In this document: piece after piece, positions 17,746 to 46,325 of the stretch
How positions within the stretch are numbered: position 1 is the first letter of the stretch
Layout of the letters: each line of letters starts with the position of its first letter
DNA from: Magnetococcales bacterium
GTDB taxonomy: Bacteria; Pseudomonadota; Magnetococcia; Magnetococcales; JADFYX01
Length of the DNA: 64,000 bases
Reading direction: 5' to 3'
Assembly (NCBI GenBank): GCA_015232365.1
Contig: JADFZU010000004.1
Coordinates: 1-64,000, forward strand
The notes under the pieces: generated by a model
What the model saw: only the letters and a program-made list of their open reading frames with translations
What the model was told of the DNA's origin: nothing
Database searches by the model: none
Translations under genes and position numbers: made by a program

Positions 17746-18594
17746 ATGGCTGAGACCAATAAAGATGATGCTGCAAAAACCACTACCAAGACAGCAGCAA
17801 CAGGTCAGAGGAAATCTGCTGCAACAAAAAAGGCAACAACGACAAAGCCTGTGACTGCAAGAAAAGCCACAGCATCAACAGCTAATAAAAAAACAAGTAC
17901 TACAAAGGCTGCAACTGCCAAAGCTAGTGGCACTGATAAATGGAATGACATCCATCCAGCTTTAGCAAAAGCTACCAGTGCAAAAAAATCTGCTAAAACA
18001 GCCAAGAAGACTCCAGCAGCATCTAAGGGTGTAGCGGTTACCAAGGCAAAAGCAGCAACTAAACCAAAAGCAGCAACTAAACCAAAAGCGGCAACCAAAT
18101 CTGTAACCAAGGCAAAAGCAGCGGGCAAAAAAACCACGCGTAAAATTGCTAGCACTAGCAAGACAAAGGTGTCGGCGGCATCACTGCGTGGTAGTAATGA
18201 TAGTCCTACGGCGGCAGATAAATCACTCCAGCTAGCATATAAACAGGTTGAAGTCGAAAGTTTAGGTGCTGGCATTGCTGCGGTACTGGGTGATGCTGTT
18301 AATAAAGTGGTATCTGGTGGCAAAAAGGCCAAGAGTGCTGTTGGAGATGGTATTGGTAGTATCACTTCAGGCGGCAACAAAACCAATAATAAACAATCTA
18401 AAAAAAGTAACCCTTCAGTGATGGAGCAGGTAGCTGAAAAGGTTCCTAACGGAGCAAAAGCTATCATCGGTGGTGTTGGTCGTGTGGTAACTGGTGGTAA
18501 AGATATAGTTGTTGGTACTTTTGGTTGTCTTGGTGGAACAGCGGTCTGTATTGCTGATACAGTTACTGATGCTGTAAAGGGTAAAGGCAAATAG
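17746..18594 (+). CDS. MamJ-like candidate: basic repetitive N-terminus with shared hydrophobic C-terminal modules
   Basis: 282 residues. Residues ~1-150 are Lys/Ala/Thr-rich and histone-H1-like, with tandem KPKAAT units. The C-terminal half has VESLGAGIAAVLGDAV, then a Gly/Lys linker, then a hydrophobic segment GGKDIVVGTFGCLGG. Both modules recur in the protein at 44134, and the first also in that at 45948. Its place between mamE and mamK is that of mamJ in Magnetospirillum, whose product tethers magnetosomes to MamK filaments. The low-complexity part there is acidic, here strongly basic. Function by position only; homology to MamJ is unproven. Confidence 0.7.
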   Translation: MAETNKDDAAKTTTKTAATGQRKSAATKKATTTKPVTARKATASTANKKTSTTKAATAKASGTDKWNDIHPALAKATSAKKSAKTAKKTPAASKGVAVTKAKAATKPKAATKPKAATKSVTKAKAAGKKTTRKIASTSKTKVSAASLRGSNDSPTAADKSLQLAYKQVEVESLGAGIAAVLGDAVNKVVSGGKKAKSAVGDGIGSITSGGNKTNNKQSKKSNPSVMEQVAEKVPNGAKAIIGGVGRVVTGGKDIVVGTFGCLGGTAVCIADTVTDAVKGKGK

Positions 18595-18673: not shown

Positions 18674-19714
18674 ATGTCAATAGTTAAGCACAGTGATAAA
18701 ACGCTATTTTTGGGTATTGATTTGGGCACATCCCAGACTGCTATTATGGCAAATAATGGCAATAAAGAGCTGATTCGCTCTGTGGTTGGATACCCAAAAG
18801 ATATTATTGGTGTAAGGCTTCTCAATGATACCAAGGTGGTTGGTGATGAAGCTGTGGAAAAGCGCTCCTATATGAACCTTCATTACCCTCTTGAAGATGG
18901 TGTTTTAAAAGAGTCTGGCGAGCGCGACACCCAGGCGGCAAAAGAGCTGTTGGAGTATGCTATCTCCCGGGTTGCACCAGGAGACAGGGGTCGGGTTTGT
19001 GGTATTATCGGGGTTCCTGCCAGGGCTTCGGTCACCAATAAAAGCCAGTTGCTGAAAATTGCAGATGAGTTGATGGATCTATCCATGGTGGTCTCAGAGC
19101 CGTTTATGGTTGCTTATGGTCTCAACTGTCTGACAAATACAATTATTATTGATATTGGTGCCGGTACCATTGATATATGTGCTATGAAAGGTACTGTTCC
19201 TGCTCCTGATGATCAGGTAACACTCCTGAAAGCAGGCAACCATATTGATGATATATTGACTAGTGCAATTGCTGAATCATACCCAGAAGTGCAGATTACT
19301 CCACTGGTTGCCAAAAAAATAAAAGAGCAGTATGGGTTTGTTGGTAAGCCGGCTGCTGACGTTGTGGTTAACCTACGCTCCGGCGGCCGACCTAAGGCGT
19401 TTGATGTAACTGAGGAGTTACGGTTTGCCTGTGAGACAATTCTACCAGATATTCTGGAAAATGTTGAGCAGTTGATTACAGTCTTTGATCCTGAAGATCA
19501 AGAAGACGCCCTGCAGCATATTATTCTTGCAGGAGGCGGTGGACAGATTGTTGGTCTGCGCCAGGCACTGCTTGATTTTTTACAAGACCATGGCGATGTA
19601 AATATTATTCGTGTGGAAGATCCTGATTATGCTGGAGCTGCCGGTGCACTAAAACTAGCTACAGAACTTCCGCCAGACTACTGGACTCAGGTCGGTGATG
19701 TGATCGGTTCGTAG
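18674..19714 (+). CDS. mamK: MamK: actin-like magnetosome filament protein
   Basis: 346 residues, typical for MamK. The actin-fold motifs are visible: phosphate 1 GIDLGTSQTAI, phosphate 2 IIDIGAGTIDI and the adenosine loop ILAGGGGQIVGL. MamK forms dynamic filaments that position and segregate the magnetosome chain. GAGGAG precedes ATG 18674. It follows the MamJ-like gene and precedes mamF. It is the only actin-like gene in the window. Confidence 0.96.
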   Translation: MSIVKHSDKTLFLGIDLGTSQTAIMANNGNKELIRSVVGYPKDIIGVRLLNDTKVVGDEAVEKRSYMNLHYPLEDGVLKESGERDTQAAKELLEYAISRVAPGDRGRVCGIIGVPARASVTNKSQLLKIADELMDLSMVVSEPFMVAYGLNCLTNTIIIDIGAGTIDICAMKGTVPAPDDQVTLLKAGNHIDDILTSAIAESYPEVQITPLVAKKIKEQYGFVGKPAADVVVNLRSGGRPKAFDVTEELRFACETILPDILENVEQLITVFDPEDQEDALQHIILAGGGGQIVGLRQALLDFLQDHGDVNIIRVEDPDYAGAAGALKLATELPPDYWTQVGDVIGS

Positions 19715-32472: not shown

Positions 32473-33540
32473 TTAGCTCTCTAAAGATAGCTCTTCCATA
32501 TCTCCAGCTTCATCAGAAGGGTTGTTTTTCATGTAGCCATAAACCCCAACACCAAAGGCTGCTGCACCAACTAGAAGAAGTGGACCCCAAGCTCCAAGAC
32601 CAAGACCAAGACCCAAGCTTAAACCAGTTCCTTTCCAAATTGTTCCAGTGCTAGCAACTTTGGCAGCTTGTGCAGTTGTTGCAGATTTGCCAGCAACAGC
32701 GGCACCTGTTTTTCCAGCAGCTGCTCCGGTTTTGGCTACAGTGTTTTGGACAGCGATACCGCCATTGCCATTTAGTGCAGCAGGTGTTGCTACAGGGCAT
32801 GGACCGCCATTGAAAGCTACAGTTGATGCAACCGCACCTTTAGTTGCCATGCCGCCAGCAGCAGCCGGTTTAAACGCCAACCATTGTGGGCCGGCAACTC
32901 CAGAAGCCATTGGTGCTTTACTGACTACAAAACTTTTTCCAACCATAGATGAAGCTGTCGTGGAGCCTGTTCCTTGAATATTCAAGGCTACGATTTTTTC
33001 TCCAGCAGCACCAGCACCTGATGCAGGCTTCAAAAACATCCAGTTTGATGTTTTAGCACCAGCAACTGCAGGTGGCTTCATTACAGTGAAAGATTTTCCA
33101 GCAAATGTTGAGGAGTCGACAAATTTACGTGCTCCTTCGGCTTTAACCAGTACCATCTGCGAAGTGGTTCCAGCTTTGGTTGTCGCAGCACCTTTGCCGG
33201 CAGCGGCAAGAGCAGCTCCTTTAGCGGCAGCCCCTTTGCCAGAATTTAGAATTAAAAACTTACCAGTGCCACCAACTGTAGCCGGAGATTGACCAACTGT
33301 TACAGTTTTGCCTGCCAGCCCTGATAGTTGTGATATCTGGTTGGTTCCCTCAATTTTGAGAGCGACTGAACTCTGCTTGCCAGTAGCAGCAACAGGGTGG
33401 AGAAACAGCCATTTGGAAAGGCCGGTCTTTCCAGCTGCTGACACGTTGCCAACAGTGTATGTATTGCCTTGAAGGGCAGCCAATTGAGATGTCTGGTTTA
33501 TCCCGTTTATTTTAAAAATTGTTGTCTCGGCAGCTGCCAT
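32473..33540 (-). CDS. mamD: MamD (Mms7)-like magnetosome protein
   Basis: 355 residues from the ATG at 33540, which has GGGGAG six bases upstream; a further ATG at 33555 has no ribosome site. Residues ~1-250 are four diverged ~65-residue repeats, each with a G-x-(T/S)-(F/V/Y)-T/V-V core and a W-L-(F/A)-(L/F)-(H/K)-P end. An Ala/Gly/Thr-rich linker follows, then the Mms6-type GTIWKGTGLSLGLGLGLG segment, a membrane helix and an acidic tail (SDEAGDMEELSLES). MamD binds tightly to magnetite and helps control crystal size. It stands alone on the - strand, convergent with mamT. Confidence 0.9.
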   Translation of the reverse strand: MAAAETTIFKINGINQTSQLAALQGNTYTVGNVSAAGKTGLSKWLFLHPVAATGKQSSVALKIEGTNQISQLSGLAGKTVTVGQSPATVGGTGKFLILNSGKGAAAKGAALAAAGKGAATTKAGTTSQMVLVKAEGARKFVDSSTFAGKSFTVMKPPAVAGAKTSNWMFLKPASGAGAAGEKIVALNIQGTGSTTASSMVGKSFVVSKAPMASGVAGPQWLAFKPAAAGGMATKGAVASTVAFNGGPCPVATPAALNGNGGIAVQNTVAKTGAAAGKTGAAVAGKSATTAQAAKVASTGTIWKGTGLSLGLGLGLGAWGPLLLVGAAAFGVGVYGYMKNNPSDEAGDMEELSLES

Positions 33541-33801
33541 TAGAGTGCTCCCCATCTTAATAGTGAGTTAATTGCTATATTTAGTGATTCTTTAACATAT
33601 AAATTATTGTGCTGGACGTAAATAACAATCATTCTTAACTAGGTGTTATTCTACTAATTTTCAGCATACTAATACATTAATATGAAGATTGCAAAAAAAA
33701 CTATTATATAGTAGGATTATTTAGTATTAATTATTTCCCTAGAGTTTGTTAGCTAGTTTTTTCAACCTTCTCATCATCTGATTTTTTCAATAGGATTTTA
33801 T

Positions 33802-34389
33802 ATGCTTCCTCTTTTAATTCCAGCAGGTATCTCCGCAGTCCTTGGTGTTGTTGTTGGTCGTAAGGTAGCCGAGATTGCAAGGGAAGACCGTTTGCAAAAA
33901 GGTTATGCCAAAGCATTTAATAAACCTGTCACCGTAGAAATAGTTAAAGAGTATATAGTTAGTGATGAGAGTCTAATCCTGGCTACGGAAGATGTGCCTT
34001 TAGATAATCAATATGGAAATCAAGATCTCAGTAGCGAACATGAATTTATCAGGACGGCAACAATATCGTTGGAGATTGCTAAAAACCGGGAGGTTGGTTC
34101 AGCTCTGAATTCTGGTTTTTTCAAGGCATTTGAGACCAAGATAGCTGATGAGCTATCTAAGAGTTTGGGAACCAAAATCGGTAGCCAGATAACCAGAAGA
34201 GTACGCCTGAAATTTTCTGTGGGGCCGCAAAAATCCGCTAAGTATAGAATTATCTGGAAACAGGAGTCCCGGCGTGGTCTGTTTGAGATATTGGTGAGCA
34301 ATAAAAAGAGGTATAAAATACCATATATGGTGAACTATGGTCTAAGTCACTCTGTGGAGAGCATTTCTGATGAGGCTTTCTCTACTTGA
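33802..34389 (+). CDS. unknown protein with N-terminal membrane segment, next to mamD
   Basis: 195 residues. A hydrophobic N-terminal segment (~2-22) is followed by a soluble domain with an amphipathic stretch ALNSGFFKAFETKIADELS and a basic beta-rich end. I recognise no family. It is divergent from mamD across 246 bases and convergent with the unknown gene at 34458. The ATG at 33802 is preceded by TAGGATTT. A magnetosome role is possible only by location. Confidence 0.65.
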   Translation: MLPLLIPAGISAVLGVVVGRKVAEIAREDRLQKGYAKAFNKPVTVEIVKEYIVSDESLILATEDVPLDNQYGNQDLSSEHEFIRTATISLEIAKNREVGSALNSGFFKAFETKIADELSKSLGTKIGSQITRRVRLKFSVGPQKSAKYRIIWKQESRRGLFEILVSNKKRYKIPYMVNYGLSHSVESISDEAFST

Positions 34390-34457: not shown

Positions 34458-34769
34458 CTATTGGCATTCGCCACTATCTACTTTTTTAATCCACTGCTTG
34501 ACCAGTAGCAGTGCACCAGCAGATAAAATTACAAAACCAAATATAGGTCCTAGAGCAGGAATGGTGGCACCTAGTTTTACAGCAGTCAGGGAGCCAACTT
34601 GACCTATGCCAGATGTTGAGCCACCTAACTTTGAAATAGTTACTGATTTTGCAACATTCAGCTTGACGTAACCTGGGCCACTTAAAACCAAGGATTGATC
34701 TGCTGCCAGTTCGCTTACTATTTTTGTCTTCAATTTTTTCTCCAATTCAGTTCTTAATGCGTGAACCAA
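34458..34769 (-). CDS. unknown small protein with a C-terminal membrane helix
   Basis: About 103 residues: an amphipathic basic N-terminal helix (ELEKKLKTKIVSEL), a beta-rich middle, a Gly-rich stretch and a hydrophobic helix (~75-95) before a short charged tail. There is no ATG: the frame offers TTG at 34769 with AAAGGA directly abutting it, or an ATT three codons further upstream with AGAGG at proper spacing, so the start is unsettled. The helix-TM-tail layout could suit a magnetosome membrane protein, but no family is recognised. Confidence 0.5.
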   Translation of the reverse strand: MVHALRTELEKKLKTKIVSELAADQSLVLSGPGYVKLNVAKSVTISKLGGSTSGIGQVGSLTAVKLGATIPALGPIFGFVILSAGALLLVKQWIKKVDSGECQ

Positions 34770-35166: not shown

Positions 35167-36615
35167 ATGAGCAACTCTATAGAAAAGAAATTGTATTTAA
35201 TGGTGCTGTTTTCACTGTTGCTATTTTTTATTGCTCCAGTTCAAACTGTTTTGGCAGGAGAGGGGGTGGTTGAGTTGATAACCGACCCGCCAGGGGCTGC
35301 TGTATATGTTGATGGGCAGTTAAAGGCCAAAGCTACCCCGGTAAAGGTTCGCCTGCCTTCAGGGTTACGGCGATTCGAGTTGCGTAAGAGTGGTTATCGT
35401 AAGCTTGATTTTAGCCTCTTTCTATCTGGTGGTGTCACTCTTAGCAAATCTATGTTTTTAATTCCTGCTGGAGTTATTGAGTCTGGTGAAGATGGGCCTG
35501 TGCTGGATTTTTTAAAAATAAAAGCTCCTATTCGAGATAGCTTTGAAACCGATAAGGAGTATAACGATAGGGTTGTTATCTCAAAACAGTACCGCCTTGA
35601 AAAGCTGCATAGGTTTAACAGAATGGCTGGAAACCCAATTTTTTCTGCTGGTAAGGTGTCGCTGTTAAAAGAAAAATATGATATCGGCTCTGGCCGTTTT
35701 CCAGTCAATTTTGAGCCGCGCAAGTGGTCTTTAAAAGTTTTAAAGTTCAAAAAAAGTTTTTTGTTTGTAAATCGTAATATGGCTAGAAAGCTTTTTAGTG
35801 CCGGTGATGAGCATCCTGTCTATATTTCTTTTGCAGATAACGGCAATGTTAAAGATGCTTTTGTTATTTCTGGCACCGAAAAACTTTATCTTATGGGGGT
35901 TGGTCGTTTTAAACAGTTGTTACCTGATATGGGTTTTGTGGCAATCCAAGGTAGTTGTTTTACTATGGGTAGTGTTCGTGGTGCAAAAAATGAAAAGCCT
36001 GAGCATGAGGTCTGTGTCGACCCTTATTGGATAGGTAAATATGAGGTGACCCAGGGGGAGTGGATGAAAATAATGGGTAAAAACCCTTCACGTTTCCGTC
36101 GTGGAAAAAACCATCCTGTTGAAAGGGTTACCTGGAATGATGCACAGAAGTTTATCAAAAAATTGAATGCAAAAGGTGGTGTAAAATATCGTCTGCCTAC
36201 CGAAGCTGAGTGGGAATATGCTAATCAGGGCGGTCAAGGTGGTCTATACCCTTGGGGAGATAAAAAGCCGGTCTGTCAGCGGAAAGTAAATAATGGTGCA
36301 AAGTTTGATGATGATAGAGTGTGCAATGATACCGGAACCAATTATGTAGGCCGTTATGCTGCCAATTTATTTGCACTACATGATATGGCTGGCAATGTAC
36401 GTGAGTGGGTGCAGGATTACTATGGCAGTGATTATTACAAAAAGAGTAAGGGGTTGAAAAATCCAACAGGGCCGGCTGCTGGAAAATTCAGGGTTATGCG
36501 TGGAGGAAGCTGGTCTGAGCCTGGAAGTAAGTTGCGGTCTACTTTAAGATCTTTTGCTGGTCCAGATTTCAAAGCAGATAATCTGGGTTTTCGACTGGTA
36601 ATGTCTCCACAATAA
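35167..36615 (+). CDS. exported PEGA and formylglycine-generating-enzyme-like domain protein
   Basis: 482 residues. Signal peptide or anchor (~10-31); PEGA domain (~35-100: ITDPPGAAVYVDGQ ... LRKSGYRKLDF); a linker; and a C-terminal SUMF1/FGE-type domain (~255-482) with the usual landmarks FTMGSV, YWIGKYEVTQGEW, VTWNDAQ, YRLPTEAEWEYA, MAGNVREWVQDYY, MRGGSW and LGFRLV. Most bacterial relatives are not true sulfatase activators; they bind ligands or modify envelope proteins. The PEGA part suggests surface or peptidoglycan-side location. It opens the + strand gene set between mamD and the MamJ-like genes. Confidence 0.88.
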   Translation: MSNSIEKKLYLMVLFSLLLFFIAPVQTVLAGEGVVELITDPPGAAVYVDGQLKAKATPVKVRLPSGLRRFELRKSGYRKLDFSLFLSGGVTLSKSMFLIPAGVIESGEDGPVLDFLKIKAPIRDSFETDKEYNDRVVISKQYRLEKLHRFNRMAGNPIFSAGKVSLLKEKYDIGSGRFPVNFEPRKWSLKVLKFKKSFLFVNRNMARKLFSAGDEHPVYISFADNGNVKDAFVISGTEKLYLMGVGRFKQLLPDMGFVAIQGSCFTMGSVRGAKNEKPEHEVCVDPYWIGKYEVTQGEWMKIMGKNPSRFRRGKNHPVERVTWNDAQKFIKKLNAKGGVKYRLPTEAEWEYANQGGQGGLYPWGDKKPVCQRKVNNGAKFDDDRVCNDTGTNYVGRYAANLFALHDMAGNVREWVQDYYGSDYYKKSKGLKNPTGPAAGKFRVMRGGSWSEPGSKLRSTLRSFAGPDFKADNLGFRLVMSPQ

Positions 36616-36733
36616 TTTTTTAACAGAGTTGAGAATTGCTATCAAAAAGAAAATAAGTTAGATTCTTTATCTATATTTATTATTATGATCTGTTTTGGTG
36701 TGTGTTATTTTATAAATATAACAGGGTGTTGTG

Positions 36734-37033
36734 ATGTTTAGGTTTTTTGTTGTAGCGGTTTTTATGTTTGGTTTGCTCTCTTCAGGGCTATCTTTTGCAA
36801 TGGGTGAGGCGACAAACGGTTCATTGTTGGTAAAAGTCATCCCTCGTGGAGCTGAGGTAGTGATTAATGATAGGGTTGTTGGAAAAGCTCCTCTACTATT
36901 GACAAAAGTTCCAAAAGGCAAGGTATGGGTTCAGGCCAGATTAAACGGTTACAGAACCTGGGGTAAGAGTGTTGATATAAGTGAATCAGAGAAGAATACT
37001 GTCACTCTGATTCTAGCTAGATCATTGAAATAA
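36734..37033 (+). CDS. small exported PEGA-domain protein
   Basis: 99 residues: a signal peptide (~1-22) and one PEGA domain (LVKVIPRGAEVVINDRVVGK ... VQARLNGYRTWGKSV). It is a short paralogue of the PEGA part of the preceding protein. ATG 36734 follows GTG 36731, and AGGGTG lies 6-11 bases upstream. PEGA domains form small beta-sandwiches found on surface and S-layer-like proteins. Likely periplasmic partner of the neighbouring envelope proteins. Confidence 0.82.
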   Translation: MFRFFVVAVFMFGLLSSGLSFAMGEATNGSLLVKVIPRGAEVVINDRVVGKAPLLLTKVPKGKVWVQARLNGYRTWGKSVDISESEKNTVTLILARSLK

Positions 37034-37178
37034 AGGTTGGTAAAATTTTGCAAACAGGCTGCTTTTGCAGATATTTTGTTAATTATTGTAAATATCTCTA
37101 ACCTGATTGACCAATAAAGTTTTCCCAGTTATAGTTAAATGTCAATTTTCTTTTAATTTTTTCTACATTCTCGGCAAC

Positions 37179-40100
37179 ATGGCTGATATTACAGGGGCTG
37201 AAGAGGGCGAAATAGAATCCAACGCCCTTTTTCTTACTTACGGGGGAATTGTTGATTCCTTCTTTGCTGATGGCAAAGAGGCTGGGGAGCCTATATCTGT
37301 CGTACCAGCCAACCTTAACGTAAGTCAGTCACCTGTAACCGATACACTTCCTCCAATAACTTTTTCAGACTCTGTAGAGGATCATGAAGATTCCAAAGAT
37401 GATGCGGAAACTGCGTTATCTGAAGAGAGTGGCGAAAAGTCTCCAGAAGATACCACCACTCTTGTCACTAATAATCTCCCCAAAAAAGAGCTTGAAAAAA
37501 TTCAGGAGTTGGTCGATGGGTATCGACGTGTTCTTAGCAAGAAGAGTAAAAGTGGTGATCGTGTGGAGTTGGGCGAGGAAGAACAGCTTCTTGCCTCATA
37601 TCTAAAAGATTTTCGTAGTGCTCTAAAAAGTGAAGATGAATCCGCACTTGAGTCCAATCCATTTTATGATCTGACAAAACAGATCTACAAATTAAACCTA
37701 GACGGTGTCAGCGAAGCCTTTCAGAAGATAAGCAAGGGAGGGGATGAGCCTCTGCCACGGTCTATTTTTGTTGCTCGAAGCTTAAAAGAGATCTGGTCCG
37801 GATCTAACAGTTCAAGAAATGGGTTTTTTAATAAGTTGTCAGAAACTTTTGGCAAGTGGATGGCCTTTTTCAGAACCCCTCTATCACTACTGCTATTTGT
37901 AGGTTCCACATATACCACTGCAAGGGGTGTTAATGACCTTCTGCAGATGGATGATGTTGGTTTGGTGTTTGGTGATCTTTTTGCTGGTAGTTCTGGAGAG
38001 GCAAACCGCTATATAGTTTGCCTTGCTAGCGGTCTGGTTCTCTCTTCGGCTATTCTAGATTATAAAACCAGAATATTTCAATCCATGGTTGAATGTGGGC
38101 TGGTGTTCAAGGGAATAAAAGATGCTTTTTTACGTTTTCCTCGTTGGATGATTCTGGCGACACTTTTAGCCTTCGTCTCGGTTAAAACCAATTATGATGG
38201 TATTGTCTCCATCATCTCAAAAAAAGAGGATCTTGCCCAGCAGTCCCAAATTATCACCAGCCGGGTCCGTAAGGCTATCGGCAGCCCATTTTTTATGAAC
38301 GCCAATGATCCAGATTCACTGTTTGATCTGCAAGCCTCATTGCAGCAGACTACCAGAGAGATCCGAGGAGTTTTTAGGACTCTACCTGAAGATGAGATCA
38401 AGGGGGTTGCCTCAAGTGGCGACCCTCGTAAAGGCCCACGCTACTGGGCTAAACATTTTATTGTTCATGGTGGTTATGAGCCTGGTGTCAACGATGTAAA
38501 ATTGGCTTTTAATGATCATAGGTTTGCCAGACAAATCGATGACATGCTTAAAAATTCTGGTATTGATTTCAGTTCATCTTTTTCAGAAAAAGTTGAGATT
38601 CTCAGAGGTAAATACGAGGATCACCTGAATTCCACTGATAGTTTGGTTCGCAAATACCTTGGCGAACTGAATGTCCTGATGAGTATGGGTGGCTACTCTC
38701 TAGATGAAATTAAGCGGGTTTTAGCTCTTGAGCACTATCAAATTAATGATATTGTTCAGATTATTGTTAATGCACTAGAAGAGAATAAACAGGCATACAA
38801 AGAGACTACTGTTGATTTGAGTGAGCTGACCAATACCTATCTGGGGATATTACAGATGGTTGATAAGTCTGGAACCTCTGGTTTGAGTTCCTATCAGGTC
38901 AAAGCAGAAGTTGTTGTACCCAAAATCGAAGCTATTGATGAACTGAGAAAGGGAAAAATCCCTGCAGCCAAACATAAGAATTTTGAAGAGCTGCGGGAGT
39001 CTCTTATGCTGAAATACGGCATAAGCCTTGGTGGCATGCTTTTAATTTCGATTCTTTTCTTCTCTATCAGCATGGACTTTGGCGATCCTATTGTCTATAG
39101 CCGAATGACTGCTAGAAGAGGGAAAAAAGACCGGGTATTCTATAAAGACCGACTGGCCAAGCTTAAAAAATGGGAAGATGAGTTCTTTAGGAAAGCCAGC
39201 CTGTTTTTTGAGAATAATGAGGTTAGAGAGGTGTTTCTAGACCCTCAGCCTCCTGGTGAGACACTGGTTAAAAATGGATTTTATCTGCTGCTGGAGAAGG
39301 TAAACTTTGAGCTGAAAGATCATCAAGACAAGACCGGCTATGAGCGGTTTGACTCTTGGTTTCAAGGGATGTTCCGGTTTAGTAGAACTGCTGATATGGC
39401 AGGATTGAATAACCGTCTGGCATCTACTAGAACCATACTCAGTAAACCCAGCCGTTATTTTCCTGATTGGGGAAAGTTTATCTATCCGGATTTTTGTCTT
39501 GATAAAACTTTCAAACGCAGCACATTCCTTGAATGGCATACTGAGAAACAACGTATTTTAGAAGAGCAGCGTGTCAACTTTTATCAGGAGTTGCGGGATA
39601 TTTCAAAATCCCAACCCGGTTTGGTATCGAACTCTCCAACTGACCTATCTCCGAGACAAAAAAGATTAGCTGACTGGGCTGATAAAAAAGGCATGACGTT
39701 TGTTGGTAGAGCCTTGATGGCTGTTAACCGTTTCTGGTTTATTATGTTCCAAGCTGTAAAAAAAGAGCCTCTTGCTGGGTTTAGTTATACTAGAAGGGGG
39801 TGGCTCAAGGCGTTTTCTGAAGATAGTCAGGAGTCAGAAAAAATTGTTGAGTCTATTTATAGCTTTATTCCAGATTTGAAGAAGGTTGTTTTTGAGACCT
39901 TGCCATATATTCAAGAGAGTTATCTTGATCCAATATTGGAGTTTCTTGCCAAATATCCTGGTTACGACGGCTATAACGATGTTCTTAATGGTGAAAAGCT
40001 GCAAAAGCAGTTTGAGGAGATTGAAAAAGAGGCTTTGGATCTTTGGGGTGTCTCATTTTTTGCCACAGACGATCCTGGTGGTTATTTAGGTCTCTCCTCT

Positions 40101-41141
40101 ATAATGACACAAGAGGAGATTAACAACCTCCAGGAGATGGTAGCAAAAACCGGTACTGATTCTGTGGTGTTCTCCCGAAGAGTTGAAAAACTTACATCTG
40201 ATATGAAGCAGGCATATGTTATCGTCAGTACTACTGAGGAGATAAACCATCTGCTCACCCAGGTGCGGACCATATGTGTTGATGTTAACCAATCTTTGAT
40301 GAAAATCAAAATGCGAGCTTGGGAGCTTCGTAGTAGCGGTACTGCTAATGCAAACCAGTTTTTAAATACCGCCACTGATCTGCAAACAAACGCACCAAAA
40401 GAGGCTGATAGTATTTTGTCTGTAATGGAGGCAATTCTGCAATCAAATCAGCCATATACCAGAGAGAACCTTGCTACTCTGCGTACGCTGTATCAGCAAT
40501 CATCTGAGCTTCAGGACCGTATCATGGCTTTTGTCGATGTCGGCAAAGATAGTACCACCACAACCCAAGATTATAGTCCAATTGCACCTGTAATGTCTGA
40601 ACCTGTTTATGAAGAGCCAGAAGCAACTGAGGAGGTGCTGGCCGAATCTATGTCAGAGGTAGAAGAGCAAGCTGCAGTAGTGGAGCCTTACACCCACACC
40701 AGGCACAACTTACAGGAAATGCAGTCTCCAGAAGATGAAGTAGAACAAAGCTCAGAGGCTGTTATTCCAACATTTATCCAAGATGATTTTGATGATGATG
40801 GTCCTGTCGTTATGCCTTCATTACCAGAAGCTGATGAGTCTGTAGTGGCATCTCGCCAGGAAGAGCGGATAAACCGGAAGGTTTTTGCCATTTATCAAAC
40901 TAGCCGTGGTGCATTGTTTGAGGGGTATACCGGAGAGATCGGCACAAGCAGCCTTGATTTTATCTCCAACACAGACCCTTCTATGTTGCCAATAGGCAAT
41001 GAAGGCATTCTTCAGGTAACTGTTGATGATGCCAACTACCAGTTTGCAGGTAAAGTTGTTCGTGTTTCAGATGCTCGTATTGTAGTGCGTGTTCTTGCTG
41101 AGCAGGACAAGTTTAAGGAACTGCTGGCTCCCATGGCCTGA
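37179..41141 (+). CDS. 1320-residue membrane/coiled-coil protein with a PilZ-like C-terminal domain
   Basis: From ATG 37179; the frame is open to a TTG at 37107. An acidic N-terminus (~1-130) is followed by three membrane helices near 230-250, 277-297 and 323-340, a large helical region between, a fourth membrane helix at ~614-632, and a long helical cytoplasmic part. An acidic linker (~1130-1225) leads to a PilZ-like domain (~1227-1315) with RINRK and GEIGTSSLDF in the place of RxxxR and D/NxSxxG; the second motif is degenerate, so c-di-GMP binding is uncertain. No known family is recognised for the body. Confidence 0.8.
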   Translation: MADITGAEEGEIESNALFLTYGGIVDSFFADGKEAGEPISVVPANLNVSQSPVTDTLPPITFSDSVEDHEDSKDDAETALSEESGEKSPEDTTTLVTNNLPKKELEKIQELVDGYRRVLSKKSKSGDRVELGEEEQLLASYLKDFRSALKSEDESALESNPFYDLTKQIYKLNLDGVSEAFQKISKGGDEPLPRSIFVARSLKEIWSGSNSSRNGFFNKLSETFGKWMAFFRTPLSLLLFVGSTYTTARGVNDLLQMDDVGLVFGDLFAGSSGEANRYIVCLASGLVLSSAILDYKTRIFQSMVECGLVFKGIKDAFLRFPRWMILATLLAFVSVKTNYDGIVSIISKKEDLAQQSQIITSRVRKAIGSPFFMNANDPDSLFDLQASLQQTTREIRGVFRTLPEDEIKGVASSGDPRKGPRYWAKHFIVHGGYEPGVNDVKLAFNDHRFARQIDDMLKNSGIDFSSSFSEKVEILRGKYEDHLNSTDSLVRKYLGELNVLMSMGGYSLDEIKRVLALEHYQINDIVQIIVNALEENKQAYKETTVDLSELTNTYLGILQMVDKSGTSGLSSYQVKAEVVVPKIEAIDELRKGKIPAAKHKNFEELRESLMLKYGISLGGMLLISILFFSISMDFGDPIVYSRMTARRGKKDRVFYKDRLAKLKKWEDEFFRKASLFFENNEVREVFLDPQPPGETLVKNGFYLLLEKVNFELKDHQDKTGYERFDSWFQGMFRFSRTADMAGLNNRLASTRTILSKPSRYFPDWGKFIYPDFCLDKTFKRSTFLEWHTEKQRILEEQRVNFYQELRDISKSQPGLVSNSPTDLSPRQKRLADWADKKGMTFVGRALMAVNRFWFIMFQAVKKEPLAGFSYTRRGWLKAFSEDSQESEKIVESIYSFIPDLKKVVFETLPYIQESYLDPILEFLAKYPGYDGYNDVLNGEKLQKQFEEIEKEALDLWGVSFFATDDPGGYLGLSSIMTQEEINNLQEMVAKTGTDSVVFSRRVEKLTSDMKQAYVIVSTTEEINHLLTQVRTICVDVNQSLMKIKMRAWELRSSGTANANQFLNTATDLQTNAPKEADSILSVMEAILQSNQPYTRENLATLRTLYQQSSELQDRIMAFVDVGKDSTTTTQDYSPIAPVMSEPVYEEPEATEEVLAESMSEVEEQAAVVEPYTHTRHNLQEMQSPEDEVEQSSEAVIPTFIQDDFDDDGPVVMPSLPEADESVVASRQEERINRKVFAIYQTSRGALFEGYTGEIGTSSLDFISNTDPSMLPIGNEGILQVTVDDANYQFAGKVVRVSDARIVVRVLAEQDKFKELLAPMA

Positions 41142-41400
41142 CAAGGTTCCAGTAAAAAAAATCTTCTATGTTGCTTTTTTTACTACGTTAGCCCTATTGA
41201 AAAAAGATTTGCAAACAGCTAAGTATAGGCAGTTTTACAACATAGCAGTAGAAGTAAAACCGGTGCATTATAGATAACTTTTTTTGATCAGGCTCAAAAC
41301 ATTACCAGAATGTTTATTTTTCAGCCGGTAATCAGGCTGTGGAGTCATGGATTTTAGGTCTGTTAATATTAGAGCAGGTAAAATAGCTGAGGGGGGCGAT

Positions 41401-42591
41401 ATGAAATTAGGGGGTGATACAGCGCCAACCATTTTTTTGGAACTGGTTGCTGGGTTGATTTTTTTGTCTGTAATAATGGTTGTTGCTAGCCTGGCTAAAA
41501 CTCCTCCTGCCTCGGTGTCAAAACCACATCAAACTCTTAAGTCCACCTCTGTCGCTGCATATTCTGAGAAGTCCGCACTTGCAAACCCTGTGGACTATAT
41601 CCTCAATACAGTTCTAAATCAGGTTATGCAACGTTTTCAAGCTCTAGATCAAAAAGTTGATGCTCTGGTTGCCGTAAGAGATGAGCATGTCTTTTCAAAA
41701 GTAAACACAGTTACGGCAAAAGTTGCAGAGTTAAGGCAGAGCCAGCAAAAAAATATACTGCCTGGGGTTAATGAGCTACAGAGGAAAATAGACTTTATTA
41801 CTCTTGAGCATGAGAGGTATATAACTCCAACTATTGCCGGGCTAAGCGACCACCTTGCCAATTTATCCTCTATAAATGGTGTTGGTATTCCGGCCATAGG
41901 GGGAGGGGCAATAGTTGATGAAGATAGCGGTTCTGGAGCTACTGGGTATATTGCAGAACCAGAACCGGTATTGCTTGAAGAGTCGTCCTTAGATCCTGAA
42001 ACGGTAGAAGTAGCTAAACAGGCAACCATAATCAAAAGCGACTTATCTACTGCTGTTGATCCACCCCCAGTCGTTAGAAAGATGAGTAATCTTGAGCTTG
42101 CTAAGAGGCTGCAGAAGGTTTTGGCCCGTTACGGTATTGGCTCCACTATCGGTTTAAACAATAATGGATTACTATTAGAGGAGTTTTTCGATTTTGATAT
42201 AGGATCATCTTTTTTGCCCAAGGATAAAAGAGCCAAACTCTCTATACTGGCAGATGCTTTATCAGAAATTTTTCTCTGTTACGCCAATTCAACAGACATT
42301 TTAGTTATGGCGAAATGTCAGGGCAGGAGTAATCCTGTTGGTGTAAGTTCAGTTATAGTTAAAGCGTTCTCAATTGGTGACAATGTCGGTACTGAGCGGT
42401 TCAACTATAATTGGCGGTTGGCATCTGCAAGATCAATAGAGGTGTTGAAAGCAGTTGTTACTTCTCGCCCTGACCTGCTGGAGTTTAAAAATAGAGAAGG
42501 GTTAATTATGTTAAAAGCTGTAGCAGAGCTTGCAAAGTCTGGATCAAAAAGGACACGGAGTATTGAGCTTCAGTTTGTTATAGATAAATAA
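41401..42591 (+). CDS. MotB/OmpA-like protein with one membrane helix
   Basis: 396 residues from ATG 41401, which has GAGGGGGG upstream; ATG 41347 in the same frame has GGAG only two bases away. Short cytoplasmic tail, one membrane helix (~12-33), a coiled-coil periplasmic region (~65-150), a variable linker, then an OmpA-like domain (~255-396) with YNWRLASARSIEVLKAV and SIELQFVI, the MotB/OmpA signature region. The domain normally binds peptidoglycan. It follows the 1320-residue membrane protein and may anchor it to the cell wall, like stator or Tol-type pairs; that pairing is inferred. Confidence 0.78.
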   Translation: MKLGGDTAPTIFLELVAGLIFLSVIMVVASLAKTPPASVSKPHQTLKSTSVAAYSEKSALANPVDYILNTVLNQVMQRFQALDQKVDALVAVRDEHVFSKVNTVTAKVAELRQSQQKNILPGVNELQRKIDFITLEHERYITPTIAGLSDHLANLSSINGVGIPAIGGGAIVDEDSGSGATGYIAEPEPVLLEESSLDPETVEVAKQATIIKSDLSTAVDPPPVVRKMSNLELAKRLQKVLARYGIGSTIGLNNNGLLLEEFFDFDIGSSFLPKDKRAKLSILADALSEIFLCYANSTDILVMAKCQGRSNPVGVSSVIVKAFSIGDNVGTERFNYNWRLASARSIEVLKAVVTSRPDLLEFKNREGLIMLKAVAELAKSGSKRTRSIELQFVIDK

Positions 42592-42690
42592 TCACCTCTA
42601 AACCCTTGCATTGTCATGGCGACAGTGTAGATGATGTAGTGTGTTAAAAATTTGATCTGCTAAATTAGATAGGGTTCTTAGTCTATAATC

Positions 42691-43773
42691 ATGAAACTGC
42701 CTAAAATCATCATATTGCAAATTTTTCTCCTGTTAACATCTTTTCCGTTATTAAGCTGGGGAGCCGACTATTATCAACGAGAGGAGTCTATCTTGGATGA
42801 TCTTCGCTCGGCAGTTGATACTTTTGGAGCCAGGCATTACAACACTGTTCCTCACAGGCTGAAATTGGCAGATTTTTATATTGAAGAAGGCGAGTACTAC
42901 AAAGCCGAGCCAATGTTGCACCAGGTTCGTTCTCTGATGGAGAAGCGGTTTGGGGTTGGAAATGCAAAACTAATTCCTATACTAAAAAAACTGGCTGCTC
43001 TAGATCTTAGACAAAACCGCTATAGTTTTGCTTTAAGCCAATATAAACGGGCAGCGTCCATAGCCACAAGACATTATGGCAGTAACTCAACCAAGACCAA
43101 ACAGATCCAAACTATAATTGCTGAGACTAGAAGAACCGAGCGGGAGTGGAAGCGCCTCGGTAGTAAGCCAGCAGTATTTACTGAAACAAAGAGGAACCGT
43201 GCCCAGTCTTCAAATAAGTTTTCAAGAGCTGTGTTTCCTAGTACATCTTCAGCAAAACAGGCAGCAGTCAACAGCGGGGTAGCAGCAATATCGCCTATAA
43301 AAAGTAAGCCCCCAGAGGTAAAGAAAAAGAGCTTTAATGCTTCCAGTAGCAAAGTAACAGTTAAAAATAATGTGGTAGCCGCTGTCGCCTCTTCTCAATC
43401 CAAGAAAGTGCAAAATCCGGCAAAAAAAACTGAGCATGGAGTAAAAACGGTAACTTTACCTCCGGCAACAGTGGCATCTACGGCTAATGCTCCAATAAAT
43501 CTAGACTCTGAAGGAATTCCAAGAGAGCCTGCTGCTGAGTATAAAAAAGGCTTTTTTATATCAATGGGCTGTTTTGGCGATAAAAAATTTGCAGTTGGTC
43601 AGGTTAACCGGGTGATGGCTCTTAATGTGCCAATATATATGAAAAGTATTCGAGGAGACTCTCTACACTGTGTGTTTGGTGGACCGTTCCCAACAAGAAG
43701 TGCTGCCCAAGCTGCAGCTGACCTCTCTCGTGCCAAAGCCGGGGTTGAAGATACCTTGGTTCGTAGTTATTAA
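42691..43773 (+). CDS. exported TPR and SPOR domain protein
   Basis: 360 residues. Signal peptide (~1-24, ending LLSWGA), a kinesin-light-chain-like TPR region (~40-140: AEPMLHQVRSLMEKRFG ... ALSQYKRAASIATRHYG), a basic low-complexity linker, and a C-terminal SPOR domain (~285-360: GFFISMGCFGDKKFAVGQV ... HCVFGGPFPTRSAAQAAA). SPOR domains bind denuded peptidoglycan at division sites. Last gene of the envelope set, and the second putative cell-wall binder in it. Confidence 0.85.
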   Translation: MKLPKIIILQIFLLLTSFPLLSWGADYYQREESILDDLRSAVDTFGARHYNTVPHRLKLADFYIEEGEYYKAEPMLHQVRSLMEKRFGVGNAKLIPILKKLAALDLRQNRYSFALSQYKRAASIATRHYGSNSTKTKQIQTIIAETRRTEREWKRLGSKPAVFTETKRNRAQSSNKFSRAVFPSTSSAKQAAVNSGVAAISPIKSKPPEVKKKSFNASSSKVTVKNNVVAAVASSQSKKVQNPAKKTEHGVKTVTLPPATVASTANAPINLDSEGIPREPAAEYKKGFFISMGCFGDKKFAVGQVNRVMALNVPIYMKSIRGDSLHCVFGGPFPTRSAAQAAADLSRAKAGVEDTLVRSY

Positions 43774-43999: not shown

Positions 44000-44133
44000 A
44001 TAGATTACACTATGCACATACTTTCACAGCCATTTCTTGGATAATACAAAAAAATATAGAAGGTCGACAGTTTTTTTTTGCTGTAGTTCCATGTTAGAAT
44101 TCCTGTTTATTTCTTTATAATCTGAGGTTGATA

Positions 44134-45864
44134 ATGGCTAAGGATAGATTTGATAACGATTCACCAACAACTCAAAGTCGGCAAGAGAGCGACGATTTAC
44201 AAAATATTGCTACTCTCAAAGGTGTAGATATATCTCTAGGTTTTGGCCGTAGGCCATCTCCTGATCAATTTGAAGAGACACAAGTCTCTGTTAAACTTTA
44301 TGAAAGTGCTGGTAAACTTGCGGCAAGAGCTGAGAAAAAAGTGATCACCGATCCTTGGAAAATTAAAGACGGTTCTGATAAATCTCCTATAAGCCGCCTG
44401 AAAAGCCTGGCTTCTGAAATAAGTAAAGAGGAGAGTACGCGGCCTAAATCTATCTCTCCTCTGGAGTCATTTATTCAGTCAAAAAGTTCTAAAAAACCTT
44501 CTGCTGTAAATGGTGGTAGTGCTGAAAATGTTGTTGTGGCAAGGGTTGCAGCAAACAGTGAGCAGCTAAAAAAACAGGGAGTACCTGATACGTTTGCAGC
44601 AGGTGATAATATAAAGCAGCCACAGCTTTCCAAGCAGATGGTTACCAGTGAACATAAAAAGCCAGTTAGGGTTCCAACTTCTGGCAATGCCAAGGCTGCA
44701 CCCCATCGCCAGGAGGTATATAAACCTTCTGTTGGTTTGCCATTTGCGCCTCTTTCAGAAAGCAAGATCATAACTACAACTACAACCAGATCCAAAACAG
44801 AACCTGCCCCTATTAAAAATCTTGCAGCTAGTGGTGCAGTCTCTATTATTTCAAGGTCTAGAGTTGTTAAAAGCAGCTCTGGATCAGGGCGTACTACAAT
44901 CAAACGCAAACAGATGATGAATCAGCCTACAATTTTGCATGCAATATTTACAAATAAGGGCCATGACCAACTACCTGTCACACCCACTAAAAAAGTTGCT
45001 GAAGTTTCTGCTAGCAAGGGAGCTGATGTAGTTGCATCAGAAGACAGTGCAGGACTGTTTACCCAGCTTAAACAGGTGAAAAAGGCACAGATTAGTAGAA
45101 AAAGCGTAATTAAAAATAGTCAGTTTGTCCCTGTATCACAGGACTCTCCAGATAGTGGGGATATCCATGAAGATGTTGAAGTGTCTCGACCTTCAACAGT
45201 TGACAAAATTGTTACTTTGGCCGAAAAAGCTGTTGACCGTCAGCAAAATGATCTTAACTCATCGACTTTTAAGCCGGTCTATTCTGGTGCGGAGGCGGTT
45301 CCCATGGGCTCTTCAAAAACTCTGTTCTCTATTTCTAAACCGGAAACAGAAGCGCAAAGTTTACAACCTGACTTTGGTGCAATATCTACACAAAAAAGTG
45401 AAGAACGGCCCTCTTATGAATTTACCATGACCGCTTCCATGGCTAGAACCAGAAATGCGGCAGGAGAAGAGGAGCAGTATTGGTCTGTACCTGTGGAGAC
45501 TCTTGGCTCTGGTGTTGCCAATATGTTGGGAAATGCGGTTGGCGGTGTTGTCCATGTCAGTCAGGTTATTACAGGCGGAACAAAACGCAAAGTGACAAGC
45601 AAACCTAAGGCTAAACCTCAGGCTGCAAAATCTGTAAATGTTGTGAATGTGCCGCTAAAGCGTGGACAGCGAGTAAAAAAGGCGATGGCTAATAAGATTG
45701 GCAGCGGTATTGGTGGCATCTTCAGTGGAGTTGGTGAAGTAGCAAAAGGTGGGGCTAATATTGTCGTTGGTACTCTCGGCTGTATTGGTGGTGCACTGGT
45801 CTGTGTTACTGGTGCAAAAGTTGGAGCCGATAATCGAGCACAAAAAAAAGAACTGTTAAAATAA
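44134..45864 (+). CDS. MamJ-like family protein with long disordered N-terminus
   Basis: 576 residues from ATG 44134 (GAGG seven bases upstream; a TTG six bases earlier is less likely). Residues 1 to ~450 are Ser/Lys/Thr-rich and disordered. The C-terminus carries VPVETLGSGVANMLGNAVGG, a basic linker, and GEVAKGGANIVVGTLGCIGG. Both are clear relatives of the modules in the protein at 17746 beside mamK. The hydrophobic GG-rich segment may insert in or bind the magnetosome membrane. Function unknown; chain organisation is a reasonable guess. Confidence 0.8.
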   Translation: MAKDRFDNDSPTTQSRQESDDLQNIATLKGVDISLGFGRRPSPDQFEETQVSVKLYESAGKLAARAEKKVITDPWKIKDGSDKSPISRLKSLASEISKEESTRPKSISPLESFIQSKSSKKPSAVNGGSAENVVVARVAANSEQLKKQGVPDTFAAGDNIKQPQLSKQMVTSEHKKPVRVPTSGNAKAAPHRQEVYKPSVGLPFAPLSESKIITTTTTRSKTEPAPIKNLAASGAVSIISRSRVVKSSSGSGRTTIKRKQMMNQPTILHAIFTNKGHDQLPVTPTKKVAEVSASKGADVVASEDSAGLFTQLKQVKKAQISRKSVIKNSQFVPVSQDSPDSGDIHEDVEVSRPSTVDKIVTLAEKAVDRQQNDLNSSTFKPVYSGAEAVPMGSSKTLFSISKPETEAQSLQPDFGAISTQKSEERPSYEFTMTASMARTRNAAGEEEQYWSVPVETLGSGVANMLGNAVGGVVHVSQVITGGTKRKVTSKPKAKPQAAKSVNVVNVPLKRGQRVKKAMANKIGSGIGGIFSGVGEVAKGGANIVVGTLGCIGGALVCVTGAKVGADNRAQKKELLK

Positions 45865-45947: not shown

Positions 45948-46325
45948 ATGTCGTATAATAGTACAGATGATGATTATCTTGGTGAGTTGACCTTGGATGA
46001 TGAACAACCTACAGTTGCCCAAGATTATGTTGCCTCTGAGTCGGCAGCTACTGATGAAGTAGTGCACGAGCCTGTTTTTGTTCCTGTGGAGAGCCTTGGT
46101 GCTGGGGTAGTCAACTTTTTAGGTGAGATGGTCGGTGGCTTGATTGGTTTAAAAGGACCTGTTCAACAATCGCTAGAGAAGGGGGCACAGATTGTCAAAG
46201 ATAAGGTCGAAGGTTTAAAAGCAAAAAAAACCACCCCTCACGATGAGGAGACAATAATACTTGATCAAGAACCAATGGCTGAGCAGCCGGTTCAGGTCGC
46301 CAGGGAGGAAGATCCTCATCTATAA
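45948..46325 (+). CDS. short MamJ-like family protein
   Basis: 125 residues. An acidic N-terminus precedes FVPVESLGAGVVNFLGEMVGGLIGL, the same module as in the proteins at 17746 and 44134, followed by a basic amphipathic helix and an acidic tail. It lacks the second hydrophobic IVVGTxGCxGG module. GGAGAG precedes the ATG at 45948. It sits 83 bases after its longer paralogue and is the last recognisable island gene before the repeat copy. Confidence 0.78.
   Translation: MSYNSTDDDYLGELTLDDEQPTVAQDYVASESAATDEVVHEPVFVPVESLGAGVVNFLGEMVGGLIGLKGPVQQSLEKGAQIVKDKVEGLKAKKTTPHDEETIILDQEPMAEQPVQVAREEDPHL

Follow-up and report, generated by a model that had tools for sequence, protein, structure and literature searches.

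Gene content of the locus

The stretch of DNA analysed here, hereafter the window, comprises the first 64,000 nucleotides of contig JADFZU010000004.1 from a Magnetococcales bacterium (assembly GCA_015232365.1). The subject of this work is a set of five envelope genes in its magnetosome island, which encode a PEGA/FGE-sulfatase-like protein, a short PEGA protein, a membrane protein of 1320 residues here called BIG, a MotB/OmpA-like protein and a TPR-SPOR protein. All five open reading frames are present on the plus strand between mamD and two MamJ-like candidates, as the initial annotation had described (Table 1). Two further small genes, which went unmentioned there, intervene between mamD and the set. 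The intergenic gaps, counted up to the MamJ-like candidates, are 74-355 bases. The same order is kept in G001 and G004, two other species of the genus (G000 is the window genome, the other G numbers are its relatives, and f numbers are families), which means that the set is not a chance assembly. As judged from sequence, most magnetic cocci carry beside their magnetosome genes a previously unrecognised gene set of this kind, encoding a Zorya-type membrane motor together with copies of mamK.

Similarity to the ZorAB motor

The OmpA-like domain of the MotB/OmpA-like protein was confirmed, and the protein is more exactly of the ZorB type. In addition to the PADLOC match given in Table 1, the MotB-like protein of the genome resembling that of strain MC-1 (G014) matched ZorB1 at 6e-27. 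When the ZorB profile was compared with the PDB, type I ZorB (8vvn) was found at 6.5e-13, versus about 1e-4 for flagellar MotB. The AlphaFold model of the window ZorB also had 8vvn as its top Foldseek match (8e-9).

The partner of this protein is seen in relatives, where a gene adjoining BIG and the MotB-like gene encodes a protein of 1065-2200 residues whose three N-terminal membrane helices are followed by a coiled-coil tail. This long coiled-coil neighbour, a channel protein of the MotA/TolQ/ExbB type, matched PADLOC ZorA1 at 1e-16 to 1e-27, and its profile picked out ZorA chains alone at high significance in the PDB (2e-19 to 4e-15). A plain flagellar or Tol motor was ruled out by this ranking of profiles against the PDB. 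ZorA is adjacent to ZorB in G003, G014, G021, G025, G022 and G026, and on contig C18 of the window genome. The initial annotation had overlooked that the MotB-like protein belongs to a ZorAB-type motor as one of its two halves, and that the window cassette has lost the other half, ZorA.

The acidic residue in the membrane helix of ZorB is Glu in nearly all BIG-linked copies and Asp in the copies accompanied by ZorC. That an acid, whether Asp or Glu, is conserved here speaks for ion conduction.

Several other ZorA-like proteins should be mentioned. In genus g17 (L120:118-3794, L121:5758-9446, L122:14281-17208), the island ZorA is short (368-398 residues) and ZorB is very long (827-975 residues), as if a long extension had shifted between the two subunits; the gene that comes next in L121 and L122 encodes a YcjX-like DUF463 protein. 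ZorA-like frames of 4147 and 3291 codons accompany BIG copies that are not in the main island (L087:282-12725 and L088:108-9983, respectively), and the gene after the L088 frame starts like MotB, with Asp in the membrane helix. ZorA-like long coiled-coil proteins are also encoded away from the island in G014 (L141:7651-13134) and G000 (L124:3263-8407), where no ZorB was detected beside them; in the tree, both lie close to one of the groups of Zorya ZorA. Next to an island zorA is a gene for an iron-dependent repressor with a fused FeoA domain (L109:14772-15470).

Linkage to magnetosome genes

All 48 Magnetococcales genomes examined carry magnetochrome genes. ZorA-like genes are present in 47 of them and in none of the 13 outgroups. 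In at least 35 of the 48 genomes, ZorA or ZorB lies no more than 20 kb from mam genes: a scripted check gave 32 of the 42 genomes with retrieved loci, to which G019, G037 and G042 were added, G042 being counted as lying on the same contig as magnetochrome. The remaining genomes were limited by short contigs or by loci that were not retrieved. The first batch of loci had been chosen by a magnetochrome match on the same contig; the denominator stays all 48 genomes. By our own estimate, the chance that a random place in a 4-Mb genome falls within 20 kb of the island is about 2-3%.

The gene order in individual genomes gives a closer view of this linkage. Three f11 genomes, one of which is the MC-1-like genome assembled as a single 4.72-Mb contig, have mamQ-mamB-mamS-mamT-zorA-zorB-orf195-BIG on one strand, with 3-12 bp between mamT and zorA. 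The order in G003 is BIG-zorA-zorB-SPOR-MJ1-mamK-MJ2, with mamD near, where MJ1 denotes homologues of MamJ-like candidate 1. The arrangement zorA-zorB-mamJ-like-mamK occurs on C18 of the window genome and recurs on contigs C88 of G003 and C15 of G001, and zorB-SPOR-...-mamK is found in G002, G031 and G035. The mamK copies tested in these zorAB sets exceed the MamK cut-off. Synteny across families, and mamK and mamJ-like genes within the same putative operons, lend good support to the proposal of a trans-envelope device with a link to magnetosome genes. The core of BIG was found in 27 of the 48 genomes with a 51-row profile.

Absence of zorA from the window cassette

In the window, a gap of 205 bases separates BIG from zorB at the place where the sister species G003 has zorA. 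Neither zorA nor a remnant of it was found in this gap or elsewhere in the window: tblastn with six ZorA proteins gave chance matches only. The window genome has a second set beside mamD on contig C18, composed of zorA (1244), zorB (358), a mamJ-like gene (303) and mamK (346). With no ZorA of its own, the window copy could be a passive anchor or could borrow the ZorA encoded on C18.

The large membrane protein BIG

The single sequence of BIG had no match in Pfam. Its homologues are 20-71% identical. A search with the 51-row profile, extended to about 250 genomes from the rest of the phylum, did not find the core in any of them; essentially only the PilZ end is found outside the order. The AlphaFold model (mean predicted local distance difference test score, 80) has a confident all-helical core and a beta-barrel end, and a Foldseek search of the PDB gave no match of the core to solved folds. 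On the basis of sequence and model, BIG is assigned to a new family restricted to the Magnetococcales, with a fold predicted to be new.

The PilZ-like end claimed for this protein is borne out by the profile match to the PilZ domain of BcsA and by its fold (Foldseek probability of 1.00 to PilZ domains). The four membrane helices claimed for it are only partly secure: two are clear in hydropathy, whereas the evidence for the other two is marginal and comes from long helices in the structure predicted by AlphaFold. The cyclic di-GMP (c-di-GMP) motif, RxxxR plus D/NxSxxG, was not found in the window BIG by a motif scan. It is kept in canonical form in BIG of G014, G025, G021, f11 and f5, and in many copies outside the island.

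The initial annotation had also missed that BIG belongs to a multi-copy family. In a search of 61 relatives, as many as 11 matched pieces came from a single genome, and copies were found away from the main island as well. One half of the BIG tree contains all island-linked copies of families f1, f11, f13 and f5, and the other half contains the copies neighboured by genes for histidine kinases or cyclic nucleotide (cNMP)-domain proteins. "Away from the island" is relative for the latter half, because in G001 and G004 a zorAB-mamK set lies on the same contig as copies from this half. BIG is missing from 21 of the 48 magnetotactic genomes, which means that it is not required for magnetosomes as such; since ZorA-like genes occur in 47, BIG was also rejected as the conserved part of the island.

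A type VI secretion assembly (IcmF/TssM-TssL) was considered for BIG and the OmpA protein and was rejected: the BIG core had no convincing sequence or fold match in the PDB beyond PilZ, and ZorB was preferred to TssL for the OmpA protein. A plasmid origin was likewise discarded, as BIG is encoded in no plasmid record.

ZorC-type islands and separate Zorya loci

In families without BIG, the island zorAB is followed by a gene for a ZorC-like protein that matches EH_Signature over profile positions of about 70-267 only. Two of three tested proteins of this type (G007 and G011) end in an Hpt domain, which suggests a ZorAB-coupled phosphorelay in these islands. No ZorD was seen beside island copies. 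EH_Signature had no match in G000, and the window cassette has no ZorC or ZorD neighbour. Several genomes, among them G038, G024 and G046, have an apparently complete Zorya locus elsewhere, in which a full-length EH_Signature gene is followed by a gene of ZorD size (1100-1250 residues); the identity of ZorD rests on this size and position. The ZorA tree separates the island ZorABC copies, as a clade of their own, from those of the defence loci; the BIG-linked ZorA are also set apart, with weak support at the deep nodes.

MamJ-like candidates and other genes

In Magnetospirillum, mamJ sits between mamE and mamK. The protein encoded at the same position in the window shares a C-terminal module with both MamJ-like candidates, and the three have in common the motif VPVESLGAGVxNxLGxxVGG. 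The module was found in 31 of the 48 genomes. Homologues of candidate 1 lie between zorB or the SPOR gene and a mamK copy in G001, G002, G003 and on C18 of the window genome; in the window itself, mamK is 24 kb from the candidates. Candidate 1 did not match the curated MamJ model, and its C18 paralogue reached 1.5e-4 (21.5 bits), below the cut-off of 100. Thus the name given to these genes is backed by position and shared module but only weakly by sequence, with no MamJ family match above the cut-off; it is plausible to call them MamJ-like in that sense, and not as members of the family.

The genes mamE, mamK, mamM, N, O, P, A, Q, B, S and T occupy about 15.5-32.3 kb of the window. Between mamA and mamQ, at 26317-28851, is a gene for a TPR protein of 844 residues. 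Other Magnetococcales, among them the MC-1-like genome, have homologues of about 500-1025 residues at this position. The small gene orf195 adjoins zorB and BIG in L027, L040, L041 and L058. The PEGA/FGE-sulfatase-like protein is probably exported and the TPR-SPOR protein is probably periplasmic, as predicted from their N-terminal segments and domains. The SPOR match of the latter is sub-threshold in Pfam (19.4 bits against a gathering cut-off of 21), and its gene follows zorB in several other genomes as well. A promoter scan gave no more sites than shuffled sequence, and the number of terminator-like sites (16 versus 11.4 ± 3.5 in shuffles) was not significant.

Table 1. Positions of the genes and features discussed; L numbers denote other loci, and all other positions are those of the window
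Feature	Position	Strand	Evidence or remark
Protein between mamE and mamK (MamJ position)	17746..18594	+	C-terminal module shared with the two MamJ-like candidates
mamK (main copy)	18674..19714	+	NCBIfam MamK 7e-153, over curated cut-off
mamD	32473-33555	-	NCBIfam 1.7e-74
orf195, small	33802..34389	+	One N-terminal membrane helix; accompanies BIG in other genomes
Second small gene between mamD and the set	34458-34769		
PEGA + FGE-sulfatase-like protein	35167..36615	+	Pfam FGE-sulfatase 1.5e-47, PEGA 7e-6; N-terminal hydrophobic segment
Short PEGA-domain protein	36731..37033	+	Pfam PEGA 3.5e-11; N-terminal hydrophobic segment
BIG, large inner-membrane protein	37179..41141	+	1320 aa from ATG (1344 aa from TTG at 37107)
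PilZ-like C-terminal domain of BIG	40860..41138	+	Residues 1105-1196, profile to BcsA PilZ 4.5e-5
Gap where G003 has zorA	41142..41346	+	205 bases
ZorB-like stator subunit	41347..42591	+	Membrane helix, coiled coil, OmpA-like peptidoglycan-binding domain; PADLOC ZorB1 8e-16
Glu codon in ZorB membrane helix	41440..41442	+	Opposite the ion-binding Asp of ZorB/MotB in HMMER alignment to 8vvn_B
TPR-SPOR protein	42691..43773	+	Pfam TPR_12 6e-9, SPOR 1.3e-3; N-terminal hydrophobic segment
MamJ-like candidate linker 1 (MJ1 homologues)	44128..45864	+	blastp 9.7e-10 to the 17746..18594 protein
MamJ-like candidate 2, acidic	45948..46325	+	Motif shared with candidate 1, blastp 1.6e-7
Island ZorC-like proteins	L113:7234-8526, L114:6228-7571, L103:16832-18100		Middle of EH_Signature only

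Proposed role and alternative explanations

The kinship in sequence and fold with ZorA and ZorB, the linkage with mamT, mamJ-like genes and mamK, and the spread of this island linkage over the order lead to the following reading, for which our estimate of the probability is about 0.55. A peptidoglycan-anchored, ion-driven motor of the ZorAB type would tether or move the MamK-bound magnetosome chain, and the window cassette would be a partly reduced copy of this magnetosome-island system. ZorA might form a wheel of five subunits, a stoichiometry that we infer, which would surround ZorB, act as an ion channel and extend a very long coiled-coil tail into the cytoplasm. The reach of this tail is estimated by us at about 120-300 nm, with 0.15 nm per coiled-coil residue. 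The OmpA-like domain of a ZorB dimer would grip the peptidoglycan, and BIG would be their partner in the inner membrane, with large helical regions on the cytoplasmic side and PilZ at its end. On the periplasmic side, the TPR-SPOR and PEGA proteins probably hold the assembly to the wall; in the cytoplasm, the ZorA tail and BIG may touch the MamJ-like linkers and MamK. The chain would thereby be tied to the cell wall and set in place by ion flow or static tension; ion flow might push or turn it in copies whose ion path is intact.

Several observations weigh against this reading. The cassettes of G001 and G004 lack zorA as does that of G000, so that three species are affected; the membrane acid of ZorB is replaced by Gln in G004, and no acid is present at this position in G012 and G013 (f9 and f10). 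The missing zorA and the Gln mean that motor function is not universal. In addition, BIG copies exist away from the main island, and gene neighbourhood is no proof of physical contact with the chain. In an alternative, purely passive role, the window cassette, after loss of zorA, would be a static peptidoglycan tether for the chain. Such a role is quite unlikely in our view, even with zorA absent from three cassettes and Glu changed to Gln in G004, as the window ZorB retains its Glu and complete zorAB is encoded elsewhere in G000. A more far-reaching reading seems rather unlikely: the Zorya-type motor would have been recruited as an active mount, in which a rotary stator fixed to the wall would pull or place the MamK-bound chain or read the torque on it, and the ZorC-type islands would report load via Hpt, making the device a true magneto-mechanical sensor and not just a passive holder of the compass.

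Sensing might also be the main task. The ZorAB channel would then read wall tension or magnetic torque, and a signal passed through an Hpt phosphorelay (ZorC type) or through PilZ and c-di-GMP (BIG type) would tune swimming. In line with this idea are the Hpt domains that follow the ZorC portion in G007 and G011, the occurrence of the canonical c-di-GMP motif in the BIG proteins of f11 and f5 and in many copies outside the island, and the proposal that Zorya senses wall disturbance (PMC11890865). Against it, the window BIG lacks the motif and no cognate kinase was traced; the idea is considered unlikely. A general envelope machine of the Magnetococcales (for division, flagella or the surface), multiplied by duplication and with one copy landed in the island, could account for the multiple BIG copies beside histidine kinase and cNMP-binding genes and for the ZorA-like frames of up to 4147 codons next to such copies. 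This is improbable, since G014 has a single BIG core, located in the island, and since the island ZorAB, unlike BIG, is near-universal and has mamK within its putative operons. It is very unlikely that the island ZorAB is an anti-phage Zorya system, or its remains, settled there by chance and with no magnetosome role. Although no characterised relatives are closer than ZorA and ZorB, and a ZorC-like EH_Signature protein is encoded after some of the island copies, island copies have no ZorD in view and only the middle of EH_Signature, with an Hpt end in two of three tested; the genomes with apparently complete Zorya carry it elsewhere, and the defence ZorA branches apart from the island ZorA. 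The island linkage also persists in many families, with mamK and mamJ-like genes within the BIG-type cassettes.

The Magnetospirillum linkers MamJ and MamY are reported to be missing from the magnetic cocci (PMC6783814). A motor gene pair present in the magnetosome island across the order is a direct candidate for holding and placing the chain in this group and can be tested in the cultured strain MC-1. If the preferred reading of a wall-anchored motor acting on the chain is true, it shows a motor best known from phage defence acting on an organelle, possibly with an actin-like filament coupled to an ion-driven stator.

Comparison with known systems

No literature naming both magnetosomes and Zorya was found, in a search mostly without subscription papers. 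The magnetosome island of UR-1, described in 2019, has genes for an EH-signature protein, MotB and an apolipoprotein-like protein between a mamD-like gene and feoA1 (PMC6783814). These very probably represent the same kind of ZorC-ZorB-ZorA set. In that work they were listed uninterpreted: they were not recognised as ZorABC, were not linked to BIG or mamK, and were given no function. The same paper reports mamJ and mamY as absent from Ca. Etaproteobacteria.

The island set and MamJ, MamY and McaA/McaB of Magnetospirillum likely share the same task, namely attaching and placing the chain. To our knowledge, no ion-driven motor or wall-binding part belongs to the latter proteins. Flagellar MotAB, TolQR and ExbBD are of the same superfamily of ion-driven inner-membrane motors as the island ZorAB. 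However, MotB was a far weaker match than ZorB in the PDB, and the MotA, TolQ and ExbB chains were missed by the ZorA profile.

The closest similarity is to ZorAB of type I Zorya (PDB 8qyd and 8vvn). In both, ZorA has N-terminal membrane helices and a long coiled-coil tail, ZorB has one acid-bearing membrane helix and an OmpA-like domain, and the two genes are adjacent. The island systems differ in that ZorA is mostly longer (1000-2200 residues) and Glu takes the place of Asp in the BIG type. Furthermore, the BIG-type cassettes are without ZorC and ZorD, and the other islands have a truncated ZorC. Unlike those of type I Zorya, the motor genes described here are in magnetosome islands, together with mamK, MamJ-like genes and BIG.

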